This document shows positions 33,713 to 42,903 of a stretch of DNA of 64,000 nt, piece after piece. Origin of the DNA: Acidihalobacter yilgarnensis (GTDB lineage Bacteria > Pseudomonadota > Gammaproteobacteria > DSM-5130 > Acidihalobacteraceae); NCBI RefSeq assembly GCF_001753245.1, contig NZ_CP017415.1:834501-898500 (forward strand), given 5' to 3'. The position numbers and the translations under genes are program-made. Below the pieces are notes generated by a model. The model was given only the letters and a program-made list of their open reading frames with translations. It had not been told where the DNA came from and ran no database searches. Positions within the stretch are counted from its first letter, which is position 1. Every line of letters begins with the position of its first letter.

Positions 33713-33784
33713 TCCGAGCGTCCTGCGCGCCGGGTTGTGTGTTTGTTACTATCGCGCCCTTTCCCGAATCAAACTGGTATCGCC

Positions 33785-35191
33785 ATGACCGTTCGCACCC
33801 GCTTTGCCCCCAGCCCCACCGGCTATCTGCACATTGGCGGCGCGCGTACCGCGCTGTTTTCCTGGTTACATGCCCGCAAGCATGGCGGTGTCTTCGTGCT
33901 GCGCATCGAGGACACCGACCTGGAGCGATCAAATGCCGAGTCGGTCAACGCTATCCTCGAAGGTATGGCTTGGCTGGGGCTGGAATACGATGAGGGCCCG
34001 TTCTACCAGACCCAGCGCTTCGACCGCTATAAGGAGGTGGTAGACCGCCTGCTGGCGGCCGGGAACGCTTACCACTGCTACTGCAGTCGCGAGGAGCTGG
34101 ACGAGATGCGCGAGGCGCAGCGCGCACGCGGCGAGAAGCCGCGCTACGACGGGCGCTGCCGGCACCGCGATGCGCCACGCGAGGGCGTCAACCCGGTCGT
34201 GCGCTTTCGCAATCCGGACGAGGGCAAGGTGATCGTCGACGATCTGATCCATGGCCCCATCGTGTTTGACAACACGGAGCTCGACGACCTCATCATCGCG
34301 CGTTCGGATGGCACGCCGACCTACAATCTCACCGTGGTGGTCGACGACATGGATATGGCGATCACCCATGTTGTGCGCGGCGACGATCACATCAACAACA
34401 CGCCACGGCAGATCAACATCCTGCGCGCGCTGGGCGCGACGATCCCGCAATATGCCCACGTCGCCATGATCCTCGGTGAAGACGGCAAGAAACTATCCAA
34501 GCGTACGGGCGCGGCCAGCGTAATGGAGTACCGTGATATGGGGCTGCTGCCAGAGGTGGTGCTCAATTACCTCGTCCGGCTAGGCTGGTCGCACGGCGAT
34601 CAGGAGGTCTTCTCGCTCGACGAGATGATCGAGTTGTTCGACCTGAACGCGGTGAATAAGGCCGCCTCGGCGCTGAACCACCAGAAGCTGCTGTGGCTGA
34701 ATCAGCACTACTTCAAAAACAGCCCGCCGGAACACGTTGCGCGGCACCTGGGGTGGCACCTCGGCCAACGCGGTGTCGATCCGAGCGATGGGCCGGCGCT
34801 CGAGGGGGTGGTTGTGGCCCTGCGCGAGCGTTGCAAGACGCTGGTGGAAATGGCCGACGGCAGCGTGATCTTCTATCGCGATTTCGACACCTACGATGCC
34901 AAGGCCGCGTCCAAAAATCTGACCGCTGCAACCGAACCGGCACTCAGGGCATTGCGCGAGGCGCTGGTCGGGTTATTGGTATGGGACGCGGCAGCCATCA
35001 ATGCTTGTGTCGAGGCCGTGGCACAAGCGCTTGAACTCGGTATGGGCAAGGTGGCGCAACCCTTACGGGTAGCCTGCACCGGCGGTAGCGTTTCCCCGCC
35101 CATCGATCAGACACTGGTATTGCTCGGGCGTGACCGCACACTGAATGGTATCGACCGCGCGCTTCGCTATATTGCGGAAAATCAGGCTTGA
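33785..35191 (+). CDS. gltX: Glutamyl-tRNA synthetase
   Basis: The product has 468 aa. The class I signatures are [20 protein letters not shown] (HIGH as HIGG) and [16 protein letters not shown] (KMSKS as KLSKR). It charges tRNA-Glu, and a tRNA-Glu gene lies just downstream at 35568. The ATG at 33785 is chosen by homology to the [13 protein letters not shown] start. Its stop codon overlaps the -35 box of the tRNA-Ala promoter. Confidence 0.97.
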
Positions 35192-35567: not shown

Positions 35568-35643
35568 GTCCCCATCGTCTAGAGGCCCAGGACACCGCCC
35601 TTTCACGGCGGTAACAGGGGTTCGAATCCCCTTGGGGACGCCA
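35568..35643 (+). tRNA. tRNA-Glu (TTC)
   Basis: 76 nt including encoded CCA. Acceptor GTCCCCA pairs with TGGGGAC, the anticodon loop CTTTCAC in stem CCGCC/GGCGG gives TTC, and the T arm is CAGGGGTTCGAATCCCCTTG. It may share a transcript with tRNA-Ala and the small gene between them. Confidence 0.96.
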
Positions 35644-35657
35644 TCTGTGGACAATCA

Positions 35658-35694
35658 CGGCCCGGACTGCAACAGCAGCCCGGGCCGTTTTTTT
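35658..35694 (+). terminator. Rho-independent terminator after tRNA-Glu
   Basis: CGGCCCG pairs with CGGGCCG around a loop of about 16 nt that includes further pairing, followed by seven T residues (35688-35694). It starts 14 nt after the tRNA CCA. Confidence 0.85.
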
Positions 35695-35935
35695 ATGTGA
35701 TTGAGTATTGGGTCATGAAATTGACGGCGAAGCGATTCAGTACATTCTTGGTAAATCTCCGGGCCCAGCGTTGATCTAAAACGTTAGGACTCGACCCTCT
35801 CCGGCCAGTTGCGTGACGGCTTATAATCCGTCGGTTGTAAGTCAGTAAGCCGCCGATGAACGCTCACAACATCCGGCGTTGAGAGACAGTGCAACGAAGG
35901 ATCGCCACCTTTCGCTGCTCGATCTGATGGCGGCA
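35695..35935. other. tRNA-adjacent spacer
   Basis: No gene. A repeat of the tRNA-Glu 3' end that would mark an integrated island (attR) was looked for here and up to 37.2 kb and not found. Confidence 0.4.
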
Positions 35936-36547
35936 TTAGGAGCCGATTTGCTTGATTTCATTCTGCCCAACATCAAACGCAGCGCACAGTGTCGCATGAA
36001 GGGTTTCTTCTGTCTCGCTGAACACCATACGAGGCGGCTTATGATCGTCTAGCCAAATATACAGATGAACCCTTTCTTTTTCATTCTTAATGCGACCGTT
36101 TGAGAATTTCCGATAAATCGGGTGTACTGTTCCATCGTCAGCGTAGAAATTTCCCGTTATTACTGCAAGCAGGTCGTTGAAGCCGCACATAACGTCGTGA
36201 TTCACAAACACAAGAACATTTGGATGTGTTTGGCCTTCGTTCACTGCATCAAACTGCTTCATGGCCCCATGGATGTGATTTTCAAGGCGGTTGAATATTG
36301 GGTCGCTTCTTCCGCCGCCCACCAGCTCACCAGGAACCGCATGCTTTAGCTGTTCGTCGAGCCACTGATTTTGAGAGCTAGATTTGACTTCGCAATAAAA
36401 CAGGAACTCACCGTTCCGAAATACCTGAAAGTCAGGTGTTTTTCCTACGCGTGTGTCCTCCTTGGGGAAACGCTCCACGATGAACCCACGCTCTTCGAGG
36501 TAGTCCTTAACCTTCGTTTCGTCGGGGTCCAAGGGCAATCTCCCCAT
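35936..36547 (-). CDS. PD-(D/E)XK nuclease-like protein
   Basis: The product has 203 aa. Residues about 10-60 contain the restriction-endonuclease-like core: KVKDYLEERGFIVERFPKED, then TPDFQVFRNGEFLFYCEVKS, giving Asp39 and Glu53-x-Lys55. The rest is unrecognised and includes Asn/His-rich HPNVLVFVNHDVMCGFNDLL and a Trp-Leu-Asp-Asp segment. No methyltransferase is nearby, so it is not an evident restriction system. It is 43 bp downstream of the 3-TM gene on the same strand, likely one operon. The composition is less GC-rich than the backbone. Start ATG 36547 follows an in-frame TTG. Confidence 0.65.
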   Translation of the reverse strand: MGRLPLDPDETKVKDYLEERGFIVERFPKEDTRVGKTPDFQVFRNGEFLFYCEVKSSSQNQWLDEQLKHAVPGELVGGGRSDPIFNRLENHIHGAMKQFDAVNEGQTHPNVLVFVNHDVMCGFNDLLAVITGNFYADDGTVHPIYRKFSNGRIKNEKERVHLYIWLDDHKPPRMVFSETEETLHATLCAAFDVGQNEIKQIGS

Positions 36548-36590
36548 TATCAATCGCGATCAGAAGTCGAGGGTTATGTCGCAAGAGTAG

Positions 36591-36995
36591 CTACTTAACC
36601 TGATTCGCGACGATGAAGCCTAGGATTGTGATACCAATGATCCGAACTAACAGCTGAAACGAATCAATGTGGACACCGATAACTCCAACGGTCAACGGCA
36701 TGTTCGGCGGATTGAATAACTGTAACGCGATAATCGCTGCGGTGATCCACCACACCACTTTCGGCTTATTAGTCGTGACGTATTGCCACAGCCGTTTCAA
36801 TTGCTTTCTAAGCAGATACAAAGCAATAAGCGCGACAATCAGTGCCCCGGCTGGCACGGCATAATGAATAAGAACTCCACGAGTCGATGGCGACATATAG
36901 CCGGGTGGCATACTCGTCGGGAGCTTAGGTGGCCGAACGTACCCTGGCATGCCCGGCAGAGGCGAGGGCGGTGGGGCGGCGGTTGTTTCACTCAT
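36591..36995 (-). CDS. Pro-rich three-helix membrane protein
   Basis: The product has 134 aa. Residues 1-36 are Pro-rich (APPPSPLPGMPGYVRPPKLP) and likely cytoplasmic; helices follow at about 40-62 (VLIHYAVPAGALIVALIALY), 81-95 (VVWWITAAIIALQLF) and 112-131 (FQLLVRIIGITILGFIVANQ). No family recognised. It is the first gene of a two-gene unit with the nuclease-like protein, which suggests a membrane partner or anchor for it. Confidence 0.6.
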   Translation of the reverse strand: MSETTAAPPPSPLPGMPGYVRPPKLPTSMPPGYMSPSTRGVLIHYAVPAGALIVALIALYLLRKQLKRLWQYVTTNKPKVVWWITAAIIALQLFNPPNMPLTVGVIGVHIDSFQLLVRIIGITILGFIVANQVK

Positions 36996-37237
36996 GGCTC
37001 AAGTACACAAACATGGGTATTCCTTGTCAATTAGCAAACCCATTATACAGACCAAATTTGATTACCGAATTTCCACAAGAACCGGTCATTCAAACAACGA
37101 CGACGCGAAGATTTCGACCGGCAGAGGTTGGCCGATAGCAGTCTCGCAGGATACCCAATCAATTCCGATTTAATTCAAGGATGGAGCGCTGTGATGTCAG
37201 CGTCTGGTTTCCGAACTGGATTCCGGATACCCGCTCT

Positions 37238-38701
37238 CTATCGCTCATTCTTGTGGTGTCCAGACATGATTGCTTTTTCACCCGCTGATGCTTGTGTGTC
37301 TGGCCGGTCGGTCAGCGTGCCGAGGAAGGCGACGATGTCCTGCATGTCGCGGCGGGTGAGGGCAGGGCGTTCGCCGGCGTGGCGGTTGAGGGGCGGGTCG
37401 ATGGTATCGACGTTGCCGCGGTCGTCGGTCGGGAGATCGTTGAATTTCTCGACGCGGCCCTGTGCGTCGCGCGGATAGATCCGTTCTGGGTCGGTGTCGC
37501 GGAAGTTGTAGAAAGCCAGCACCTGCATCAGGGTGTGGTAGACCCCGTTGTGGAAAAACGTATGGCGCGTGGCGACGTTGCGCAACGTGGGCGTGAGGAA
37601 AAGGCCGCAATATCGGTGCTGCCGGGCCAGATCCTTGCGGAAGGGCCCGCACAGACCGAGGTCGTAGTAGTGCGGGTCACGGTTGGCCGGGATGGCGGGG
37701 TTGCGCGGCACGCCGAGCGCCTCGTACTGGTGGTCGGTAAACAATGGCGGCAGGCCGTCGGGTGTCGGCCGGTCCACATGACAGGCTGCGCAGTCGCCCT
37801 TGGCGGGATCGTTGAACAAGAGATAGCCGCGTAGCTCGGCGCTATCCAGCCGGGCCTTGCCGCCCAGCCAGGCGTCGTAGCGGCTGCGGTAGGGGTGGAA
37901 GCTCGGGTCCTCGATCTGATAGCGGGCGAGCGCGAAAAGCGCCTCGGAGACCAGGAAATTCGGATTGTCGAAGATGCCGGGGCCGAACAGGCGGCGGAAG
38001 TCGCGGGCATAGGGCGAGACGGCGAGCCGTGCGGCGACCTGTTGCGGCGAGCCTGCGTCCATCTCGAAGGTGTTGAACAGCGGACCGTCGGCCTGCTGCT
38101 GCAGGGTGTCGACACGTCCGTCCCAGAACAGGCCGCCCTGCGGCACGAGGTTGTGCGCGGTGCCGGCGGTGTCGCCGGCGGTCTTGGTCAGACGCGGCGC
38201 ACCGACGCTGCGCGCGATCTTCTGGCGCAGGGTTAGGGTCTCGTTGACGGCGTTGTCCGGCCCGACGCTGAAGGGCGGCTGGCGTTCCAGGTACATCAGG
38301 CTGGGTACGGCACGGTAGCCGGGGGACTGACCGTCCGGGCCGCCGAACATGACCGCGGCATCGCCCGGCGGGCCGTAGGCGTGCTGCGGGCTGTGGCAGC
38401 TGGCGCAGGACATGCGTCCGGAGCCGGACAGGGTGCGGTCGTAGAAGAGGTCCCGACCGAGCCGGGCCATGGCCGATAGCGGTGCGACGGGTGGGCGCAT
38501 CAGGCGGACCGGGTGCGGGTTCTCGCCGTGGGCAAGGCGCCAGGTGTCGACGGGGTGGTGCAGCCAGGAGGCGAGCGGAATCAGTGGGTAGAAGGCGACG
38601 ACGGGTTCGATCAGCGCATAGGCGCCGGCGAGCAGCGCGAATACGGCCGCGACACCCAGCGTGCGGCGTAGCCGGCGGCTCGGTCGGTCGTGACGAAACA
38701 T
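37238..38701 (-). CDS. Di-haem cytochrome c peroxidase family protein
   Basis: The product has 487 aa. An N-terminal hydrophobic segment (LGVAAVFALLAGAYALIEPV) acts as signal anchor. Two CXXCH motifs, MSCASCHSPQHAYGP (about residue 98) and GDCAACHVDRPTPDG (about 305), bind c-type haems, and TPTLRNVATRHTFFHNGVY is the conserved region near the active haem of the CCP/MauG family. It would reduce peroxide or oxidise a periplasmic partner. It is 55 bp downstream of the phospholipase-like gene on the same strand. Confidence 0.88.
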   Translation of the reverse strand: MFRHDRPSRRLRRTLGVAAVFALLAGAYALIEPVVAFYPLIPLASWLHHPVDTWRLAHGENPHPVRLMRPPVAPLSAMARLGRDLFYDRTLSGSGRMSCASCHSPQHAYGPPGDAAVMFGGPDGQSPGYRAVPSLMYLERQPPFSVGPDNAVNETLTLRQKIARSVGAPRLTKTAGDTAGTAHNLVPQGGLFWDGRVDTLQQQADGPLFNTFEMDAGSPQQVAARLAVSPYARDFRRLFGPGIFDNPNFLVSEALFALARYQIEDPSFHPYRSRYDAWLGGKARLDSAELRGYLLFNDPAKGDCAACHVDRPTPDGLPPLFTDHQYEALGVPRNPAIPANRDPHYYDLGLCGPFRKDLARQHRYCGLFLTPTLRNVATRHTFFHNGVYHTLMQVLAFYNFRDTDPERIYPRDAQGRVEKFNDLPTDDRGNVDTIDPPLNRHAGERPALTRRDMQDIVAFLGTLTDRPDTQASAGEKAIMSGHHKNER

Positions 38702-40373: not shown

Positions 40374-40688
40374 GTGAATCTCCTATGTGTCCATGGCCCG
40401 GCGGAATCCCACGGCGAGGCAAGCTTTACACCATATCCGATGGTTGAGCATCGTGGGATGCGATAACGCCGGGTAGCATGACGCACGCCTGTGATGTTTT
40501 TATTTAGCGCGCCTTACGCTTGAAGTTCGTCCGGTAGGTACATTGCCTTGTGCTTACCGGGATTCTCCGCTAGGCCACTGCGCGCGCTGATGACCGTGCA
40601 CGCAGGCCTATCGTCTGCCCTGTTTTGCTTGTAGCCCGCTGCGGCGGGCTGTCGAACCGGGTATTGAGTGTATGAAGTGTTGCTGCGT
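40374..40688. other. Spacer with small hairpin
   Basis: No gene. AGCCCGC and GCGGGCT form a 7-bp hairpin at 40633-40650, 39 bp past the chemoreceptor stop; no T-tract follows it on the minus strand. The right part presumably holds the phosphoesterase promoter. Confidence 0.45.
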
Positions 40689-42299
40689 TTATACCCTGAA
40701 TTTTGATACCAACCGCTGCAGCTCGGTTGCGAGATCGGACATTTTGCGGCCGGCTTCTGCGATCTGGTGAGCGGATTCCTCGGTTTGTTCGGTTGCAACG
40801 CTGATGTTCGATATGTTTTCGTTCATTTCAGTGGTGACGGCGCTCTGCTCCTCGGCTGCGGTGGCAATTTGTGTGGTCATGTCCGATATTTTTCCGACAG
40901 CGCCCGAAATGGCGGTCAGGCGATCACCCGATGTGCCAGCGAGAGTGACGCTGCGTTCGACGCCTTGCTGGCTGACCTTCATGGCTTTTACGGCATTTTT
41001 GGCCGCTGCCTGCAGGTTTGCAATCATGTTCTGGATTTCCTGGGTCGATTGCTGCGTCCGTTTGGCAAGCGTGCGGACTTCATCGGATACGACGGCAAAG
41101 CCTCGGCCCATCTCACCCGCTCGAGCGGCTTCTATGGCTGCATTCAGTGCCAGCAGATTGGTTTGGTCGGTGATGTCCCGGATGACGTCTAGTATGGTTC
41201 CGATTTCATCACTGCTCTTGTCGACCTGATAGATGACGCTGGAGACGTTCTCGATGTCGTTTGCAGCCGAGCGTATCGCTTGAATTGCTTCCTCGACGGC
41301 ATGATTCCCGGCATCAACTTCCTGGTTGGCTTGTTGTGCTGCGCTAGCCGAATCGGTGGCGTTTTTGGCAACTTCGTGTGACGTAGCGCTCATTTCGTGC
41401 ATTGCGGCGGCGATTTGGGAGATTTCGGATACCTGCTTGGAAATTGCATTTTCCGTTTGACCGATCGAGGCGGAAAGTTGGGTCGAGAATGTTGCGATGT
41501 GGGTCGATGATTCTGAAACGTCGCGCATGATCGTCTTCAACTGCGTGCGCATCGCGTTGAGTCCGGAGCACAGCTGCCCGATTTCATCTTGGCTGTGATG
41601 CGTGAGTTCCTTGCCACCCAGGTCGCCGGATGCGATCCGATTGAGTTCGGATGAGACAACGGGGATTTTGCGAACGATGCGGAATAGGGCAGCGCCGCTT
41701 GCTGTGAGTACAGCGAGTATGACGAGCAGCGCGAAAATGAGTGTCCATTGCGTACTAACCACGGTGGCTTGTTGTTGTGCGAGTAGCGCGTGCGCCTTGC
41801 CTTGGCTGGACGTGAGGAACGGGTTTACTGTTTCGAAGATGCTGCCGGCGGCACTGTCGAATCCGGTCATTAATTGGTTGCCGGCCGCTGTCCCTTGGTT
41901 GACATAGGCGTCGGCCATATCCTTGCCGACCTGATAGTAGCGGTCGAATTTGGTTAGCATCGAATGGTACTCATTCCTGCGTTCCGGATTGAGTGCGATC
42001 AGTTTGTCGATGAGGGCGTGAAAACGGTCGCGATATTCGGCTGCCGATTTCAGGTCGTCCTGTAGGCTATCCTGTTGTCGCATTGCGCCAGCATCGGAAA
42101 AGAACTGCTGCACCTGAATGACCGAGATCTGCATCTGGTAGGCGTATTCCATAATCGGAATGTCGCGGTGTCTGAGGTTGGCGCTATCAACTCTAATCCT
42201 ATCGGCGTTGGCAATGATCAGAGCAAAAGAGATGAGCAGCACGGCGGCGATCGAGGCGCCCATCAGCCCGAATTTGAAATTCAGAGATTTGTTTTTCAT
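40689..42299 (-). CDS. Methyl-accepting chemotaxis protein
   Basis: The product has 536 aa. TM1 is about residues 10-30 ([20 protein letters not shown]). A periplasmic four-helix-bundle-like region (about 31-187) precedes TM2 (about 188-208, [20 protein letters not shown]). HAMP and the cytoplasmic coiled coil follow, with the signalling tip [20 protein letters not shown]. No NWETF-type C-terminal pentapeptide is present. Ligand unknown. It stands alone, away from che genes. Confidence 0.93.
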
Positions 42300-42540
42300 G
42301 TGACCCCTTGCTCTAGAGTTGGGTTGGCGATATGACCTTGCCGCTTCCCGTTCACCGCGATGGAAATTCGCGAGAGCCGGAATGCTTGCCCATTTTGCTT
42401 GATGTGGTTGCTTCGCCCGATTTGGATCACGCAGGTGCGTGTCCCATTTGTGAGTTATTGGTCAGGGCTTGTGCCAAGCATGCCACTGTTGAGTGGATTT
42501 ATAAATATTATGATTTATACGTGAATAAATATTGGTAATA

Positions 42541-42903
42541 TTATGATTTTCTGCATTCTGACGCACGCAGTTGATCCGCGAGCACGCAGGCATTGTTGCG
42601 CCGGTCATCGCGCGTGGCGTAAAGAAGAGTCAGCGTGCCTGTTTCGGCGAGCGCGCGCAGTTGTCCGAGGCGCTCGGCCTGACCCGCGAGTTCCAGACGG
42701 TAACGTTGGGTGAATTCATCGAAGCGCTGTGGTTCGTGCGCGAACCAGCGCCGTAGTTCGTTGGAGGGTGCGATCTCGGGAAGCCATAATTCGAGTTGCG
42801 CCTCGGTGCGCCGAATGCCACGCGGCCACAGTCGGTCCACTAGGACTCGATGCCCATCAAGCGGCGCTGGGTGTTCGTATATGCGTTTGCAGCGGATGTC
42901 CAT
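42541..42903 (-). CDS. DUF488 family protein
   Basis: The product has 120 aa. The signature VLVDRLWPRGIRRTEAQLEL and APSNELRRWFAHEPQRFDEF defines DUF488; TLLYATRDDRRNNACVLADQ closes it. The biochemical role is not established. It stands alone, 241 bp from the chemoreceptor gene. The 260 bp between it and the tRNA-Leu gene contain no feature I can support. Confidence 0.88.
   Translation of the reverse strand: MDIRCKRIYEHPAPLDGHRVLVDRLWPRGIRRTEAQLELWLPEIAPSNELRRWFAHEPQRFDEFTQRYRLELAGQAERLGQLRALAETGTLTLLYATRDDRRNNACVLADQLRASECRKS

Follow-up and report, generated by a model that had tools for sequence, protein, structure and literature searches.

The window, by which we mean the whole stretch of 64,000 nucleotides of Acidihalobacter yilgarnensis DNA that was analysed, contains two adjacent open reading frames (ORFs) on the minus strand next to a tRNA gene. 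P0001 (35936-36547) encodes a PD-(D/E)XK-family protein of 203 amino acids, counted from an ATG start codon, and a TTG codon is present two codons further upstream. P0002 (36591-36995), which lies upstream of P0001 and is separated from it by 43 nucleotides, encodes a Pro-rich protein of 134 amino acids, for which two or three membrane helices are predicted. An earlier note on this DNA had proposed a two-gene system at this site, and both ORFs were indeed found on the minus strand at these positions; the numbering of Asp39, Glu53 and Lys55 was also confirmed on the P0001 translation. The tRNA-Glu (UUC) gene (35568-35643, plus strand) is located 292 nucleotides from the end of the P0001 gene and forms the edge of a variable slot. 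It is followed by an inverted repeat with a T-run (35657-35695, plus strand), which is present in both sister genomes and which we infer to be terminator-like. This repeat was absent from the output of a promoter/terminator scan, which revealed no excess over shuffled sequences at the locus. P0001 and P0002 are contained in a variable insert of about 1.3 kb (35808-37128, no strand assigned). The shared flanks carry a glutamyl/glutaminyl-tRNA synthetase-type gene on the left (33737-35191, plus strand) and a di-haem cytochrome c peroxidase-type gene (CCP_MauG) on the right (37238-38701, minus strand).

The flanks of the slot are common to two genomes of the same genus, G001 and G002 (left flank, 86%; right flank, 92-95%), and the middle differs. 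The match to the left flank stops at position 35782 (G001) or 35807 (G002), and the match to the right flank begins at position 37129. In G001, the slot is occupied by a single ORF of 173 amino acids (L025, 2533-3054), which has no Pfam match and contains the stretch RDICNATKHF. The cargo of G002 (L026, 2830-5153) consists of a HicAB-like pair (HicA, 28.1 bits against a cut-off of 27; HicB, 56.2 bits against a cut-off of 21) and a 342-amino-acid ORF with at most a weak Pfam match. Three congeneric genomes thus carry three different cargoes between tRNA-Glu and the peroxidase gene, which bears out the proposal that cargo is located beside the tRNA gene. The G+C content of the insert is 46-54% in 400-base windows, compared with 59-66% in the DNA on its left side and 62-72% in that on its right side up to 40.4 kb. 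Since the G+C content drops again at 40.4-42.6 kb, a low G+C content is not peculiar to the insert. This second stretch (48-57%, window positions 40400-42600) lies over a chemotaxis-receptor-type gene. The 3' end of tRNA-Glu occurs only once in the window, no convincing repeats flank the insert, and no space that could accommodate an integrase gene was seen in it. Because no repeat of the tRNA end or of another kind that could serve as an attachment site was found, we do not claim an integrase-type insertion at tRNA-Glu.

Database searches with both proteins gave nothing above the curated cut-offs of Pfam and NCBIfam (E up to 10), no family of PADLOC-DB 2.0.0 (E up to 10) and only weak PHROG matches. 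The best family match of P0001 was the one to Hjc (PF01870), which at 14.7 bits stayed below the cut-off of 21.1, and sequence searches of the PDB returned nothing useful. P0001 matched the window genome alone, both in a set of 56 related genomes and in a set of 274 from the class. One weak match was obtained with P0001 in 398 genomes of the phylum and another with a two-row profile in 369 genomes of the class; these matches (G572 and G202) were set aside. Relatives of P0001 were found neither in phage records nor in four scans of viral contigs, in which three stretches containing the family motif were rejected, two because a stop interrupts the motif frame and one (L032) because it fails the family profile. 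A plasmid search uncovered ten Leptospira records with a copy that is 28% identical to P0001 and frameshifted in the three records examined. In the Leptospira plasmid pieces L024, L028 and L029, the broken copy is located behind a membrane-type ORF of 215 amino acids and near an annotated Rpn family nuclease.

The motif PDF-x11-CEVK, derived from P0001 and the Leptospira copy, was used to scan one genome per species for 84,980 species. Of the 42 stretches that were detected, 33 belong to family members (E < 1e-18 with the family profile), 26 of which match by construction because the profile was built from 27 sequences, that is P0001 and 26 motif hits. The profile also recognises sequences that were not used to build it, namely L040, L041, L046, L056, L067, L071, L074 and the copies from Leptospira, none of them with an E value above 4e-15; L058 (E 5e-10) was left out of the member count. 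As the exact motif was used, the number of 33 members is a lower bound and residue counts are biased. According to the record titles, the members belong to Acidobacteriota, Pseudomonadota, Nitrospirae, Chlorobiaceae, Ignavibacteria, Verrucomicrobia, Bacillota and a deltaproteobacterium. Since homologues exist in several phyla, P0001 is an ORF beyond chance. The closest relative of P0001 is a Thiogranum protein (66% identity over 201 columns), with which it also groups in the phylogenetic tree (support 98/94). A profile search in 247 genomes of the phylum of the member genome G748 yielded only G748 itself, with two copies, and two weak partial matches. Thus, the P0001 family is rare, patchy and without a name. 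The reading frames of five of the 33 members are split or truncated (L041, L046, L056, L067 and L071), which together with the broken copies on the Leptospira plasmids fits a dispensable gene; errors in draft assemblies could give the same picture.

The earlier note had described P0001 as a PD-(D/E)XK-type protein, and this assignment is supported by the core residues and by the predicted core fold. D39, E53 and K55 are invariant in all 29 aligned members, all of which, except for the window copy, were chosen by a motif that requires these residues. The Leptospira copy, found without the motif, has kept all three residues, and a second copy in G764, also found without it, has kept E and K and carries Glu in place of Asp39. 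An AlphaFold2 model built from 29 sequences (pLDDT 89.4, pTM 0.86) confidently predicts a nuclease-like structure for P0001. A Foldseek search with this model gave no row at E < 0.001, and the best rows were those of Hjc (E 0.035). The top rows of a structural comparison with VIA-align were the CdiA-CT toxin 4g6v (Z 8.8) and XisH (Z 7.9), followed further down by BsmI (Z 7.0), NucC (Z 6.3) and Hjc (Z 5.8), which we take to be PD-(D/E)XK enzymes. Acetyl-CoA carboxylase rows (Z 7.0-7.6) are interspersed with restriction-type nucleases in this list, and values of Z < 8 may reflect merely a common arrangement; therefore, the PD-(D/E)XK assignment relies on the fold and the active-site motif jointly. 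Families that are missing from the list are not taken as excluded.

Several known proteins resemble P0001 in part. Hjc and VRR-NUC (PF08774) share the PD-(D/E)XK core with the D...ExK arrangement, and one of the 29 members matches each of the two models weakly (E up to 0.1). However, P0001 is about 80 residues longer than these proteins and its family has conserved stretches of its own (DPxxNR, AxxQ, VNHD, DLxxVLTG, GRI and IDLYxW). The CdiA-CT toxins 4g6v and 4zqu (Z 8.8 and 5.9) and XisH (2inb and 2okf; Z 7.9 and 7.4) can be aligned structurally with P0001 at identities of 12-14%. Unlike these proteins, P0001 has no other domains, and its neighbour in the insert, P0002, is above no family cut-off.

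P0002 is less well defined. The first 35 or so residues are Pro-rich, as had been noticed before. The three helices ascribed to the protein were recovered by a single-sequence model of low confidence (36-75, 77-94 and 104-132; pLDDT 67), whereas the hydropathy profile clearly indicates two membrane segments (windows within 38-66 and 99-134). Of 2000 dinucleotide shuffles confined to the P0002 stretch, 55 produced an ORF of 134 or more amino acids; for the whole insert, the corresponding number was 333 of 2000, and ORFs of at least 203 amino acids appeared in 21 of 2000. The G+C contents at the three codon positions (0.54/0.44/0.59) are mildly gene-like. With moderate support overall, P0002 is likely a real gene. 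It may also be a real partner of P0001, for which its position is the sole argument. No convincing relatives of P0002 were found in other genomes, and five weak partial matches (E 0.0005-0.01) were set aside. The earlier note had envisaged a two-gene system of a membrane protein and a nuclease, and had itself named homologues that never occur together as the observation that would speak against it. A tblastn search of the pieces L001-L096, which include pieces of all 33 family loci, several of them ended by a contig edge, returned only P0002 itself and a 23-residue match (E 0.5). Moreover, P0002 does not match the 215-amino-acid membrane-type protein of the Leptospira plasmids. The idea of a conserved pair was thus not supported.

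For a survey of the neighbourhoods, 150 of 197 called ORFs from 31 of the 33 family loci (without L052 and L075) were scanned; the nearest three ORFs on each side with up to 900 amino acids were chosen and the duplicate contig L050 was excluded. The ORFs were called mechanically, part of them being spurious, and at L080 one surveyed ORF was swapped manually for a BrnT ORF overlooked by the caller. At a threshold of E 1e-5, 99 Pfam families were matched. In the 25 families listed, MerR occurred four times, a glycosyltransferase family three times, and BrnT and HigB twice each, one of the two BrnT matches being the manually placed ORF. PADLOC matches belonged to 16 families, most of them seen once, with Hhe and PDC-S37 found twice; the four 'mad1' matches are probably the four MerR-type regulators. 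Toxin-type genes accompany some relatives. For instance, both nuclease copies of the Bacillota metagenome-assembled genome (MAG) G764 are preceded by a PF09000 'Cytotoxic' domain, and PhdYefM and PIN genes are located upstream of the nuclease in an alphaproteobacterium (L090). In L083 (9238-10400 and 4156-5306), a nuclease-family protein with an extended N-terminus comes after each of two stand-alone PF09000 domains, and one of these two proteins has Glu in place of the first active-site Asp. The nuclease follows a T5orf172 gene in L093 and an RNase_T exonuclease gene in L094. Several other relatives are solitary between core genes. In a Nitrospirae MAG (L084, 6491-10044), the nuclease lies between gyrB-like and gyrA-like genes, which were named by eye. 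No toxin gene was seen alongside the Thiogranum copy and the window copy. A tRNA gene is present within 0.5 kb of the nuclease in three of 32 other family loci scanned (L036, L040 and L067); the nuclease is located 3' of the tRNA gene as in the window but, unlike in the window, on the same strand. No defence genes were detected among ten flanking ORFs of the window copy, in which the only PADLOC matches, ZorA (E 3e-6) and LmuB (E 7e-6), both fall on one chemotaxis-receptor gene. A defence island was thus not seen around the window copy. Toxin or toxin-antitoxin genes accompany some relatives, and defence genes are few in the survey.

Within a clade comprising eight Acidobacteriota loci, a gene for the RNase toxin BrnT is located directly upstream of the nuclease in all seven testable cases (G748, G756, G759, G760, G762, G767 and G779); at the eighth locus (G768), the contig stops at the nuclease and the upstream side is not visible. 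In six of these seven loci, the nuclease ORF shows close to its start an N-terminal stretch such as MRPEYDFSGGVRGRHA, of the type found in BrnT partners. The G767 nuclease has the variant MQPEYDLSKAVPGYTA, and in the G760 nuclease no such stretch was found. Among 23 other BrnT loci of the same genome set, eight (L108, L110, L112, L121, L124, L127, L131 and L133) have a partner of the same start type followed by another domain, which by eye appears RHH-like in some cases; the patterns that were used gave no resolution for the remaining 15. As ordinary BrnT partners share this EYDFSxGxRG-type start, the N-terminus is one in use by BrnT partners of the same genomes. A Pfam scan of five clade nucleases at E up to 10 recognised no family, including no C-terminal RHH or HTH domain. 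BrnT-BrnA fusions are described to carry RHH or HTH domains (PMC11980606), and RHH antitoxins are described for COG2929 (PMC2701414). Where an RHH domain would be expected in BrnA on the basis of the former source, the clade proteins contain the nuclease domain, as if the nuclease had replaced the DNA-binding half of the antitoxin. At the abstract level of the literature, no fusion of a BrnT partner and a nuclease was found; it may still be in print. The order of BrnT and a nuclease domain behind this N-terminus can be seen in L034, L043/L080, L047, L075, L082 and L086, and some of these loci have DnaJ and MerR-type genes nearby. The window copy has neither a BrnT gene beside it nor the BrnT-partner N-terminus, and no BrnT match was obtained in the whole window genome at E up to 0.001.

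We consider it an even chance that P0001 is a metal-dependent PD-(D/E)XK nuclease, and that its rare family has spread horizontally and occurs in toxin-antitoxin or abortive-type cargo with interchangeable partners, and that it entered the window site together with P0002. P0001 would be the nucleolytic part of such small modules, the partners of which would be exchangeable, and it would have arrived in the slot between tRNA-Glu and the peroxidase gene along with the unrelated membrane gene P0002. The protein presumably cuts nucleic acid, would act inside the cell on that of an invader or the host, and has probably been moved horizontally; P0002, if translated, would be co-produced, perhaps as an anchor. 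The homology of the 33 members, the model with its structural matches, the three cargoes of the slot including the HicAB-like pair in G002, the BrnT neighbours with the antitoxin-type N-terminus, the PF09000 and PhdYefM/PIN neighbours and the broken copies argue for this explanation, which is weakened by the lack of a toxin gene beside the window and Thiogranum copies and of a BrnT match in the window genome, by the solitary relatives and by the few defence neighbours.

It is possible, if somewhat doubtful, that P0001 is a stand-alone nuclease for DNA processing or repair, similar to a junction resolvase, which hitchhikes between core genes. P0002 would then be unrelated, and the toxin neighbours would reflect shared cargo sites. 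Many relatives indeed have no recurrent partner, nearly all member genomes have a single copy, and Hjc shows weak similarity to P0001 (E 0.03) besides providing the best Foldseek row. However, a repair enzyme would hardly be so patchy (one of 56 relatives and one of 274 class genomes, in both cases the window genome), and the broken copies and the fusion to an antitoxin-type N-terminus also speak against it. Abortive-infection systems that combine a membrane protein with a nuclease exist, and P0001 and P0002 might form a dedicated pair of this kind, with the membrane protein as sensor or anchor and the nuclease as the killing component. The two genes lie close together on the same strand in one shared insert, small membrane-type ORFs are located downstream of the nuclease in Thiogranum (87 amino acids) and L085 (125 amino acids), and the Leptospira plasmids have one upstream. 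However, P0002 matches neither the Leptospira protein nor any of the pieces L001-L096, the flanking membrane ORFs vary in place and apparent helix number, and membrane genes are presumably frequent neighbours in any genome. The likeness to the known systems is one of gene layout alone and the pairing is not conserved; a dedicated pair is unlikely. That P0001 is a leftover, silent or in decay, without present function, as the damaged frames of five relatives and the Leptospira copies and the odd base composition of the insert might indicate, is very improbable given its full-length ORF, its active-site residues and its 66% identity to the Thiogranum protein.

Returning to the explanation as a cargo nuclease with interchangeable partners, a bolder version, which we regard as rather unlikely, is that an intact PD-(D/E)XK domain replaces the DNA-binding domain of the antitoxin, so that one protein would restrain BrnT and attack or sense foreign nucleic acid. 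A single trigger would then free two nucleases, BrnT and the PD-(D/E)XK domain. In this version, the window copy would have branched off without a toxin, and its partner would now be a small membrane protein. The analysis thus describes an unnamed nuclease family that is tied to toxin-antitoxin modules and a cargo slot whose content varies between sister genomes. If the exchange of a DNA-binding domain for a nuclease in the BrnT modules is functional, it would represent an antitoxin with a catalytic body.
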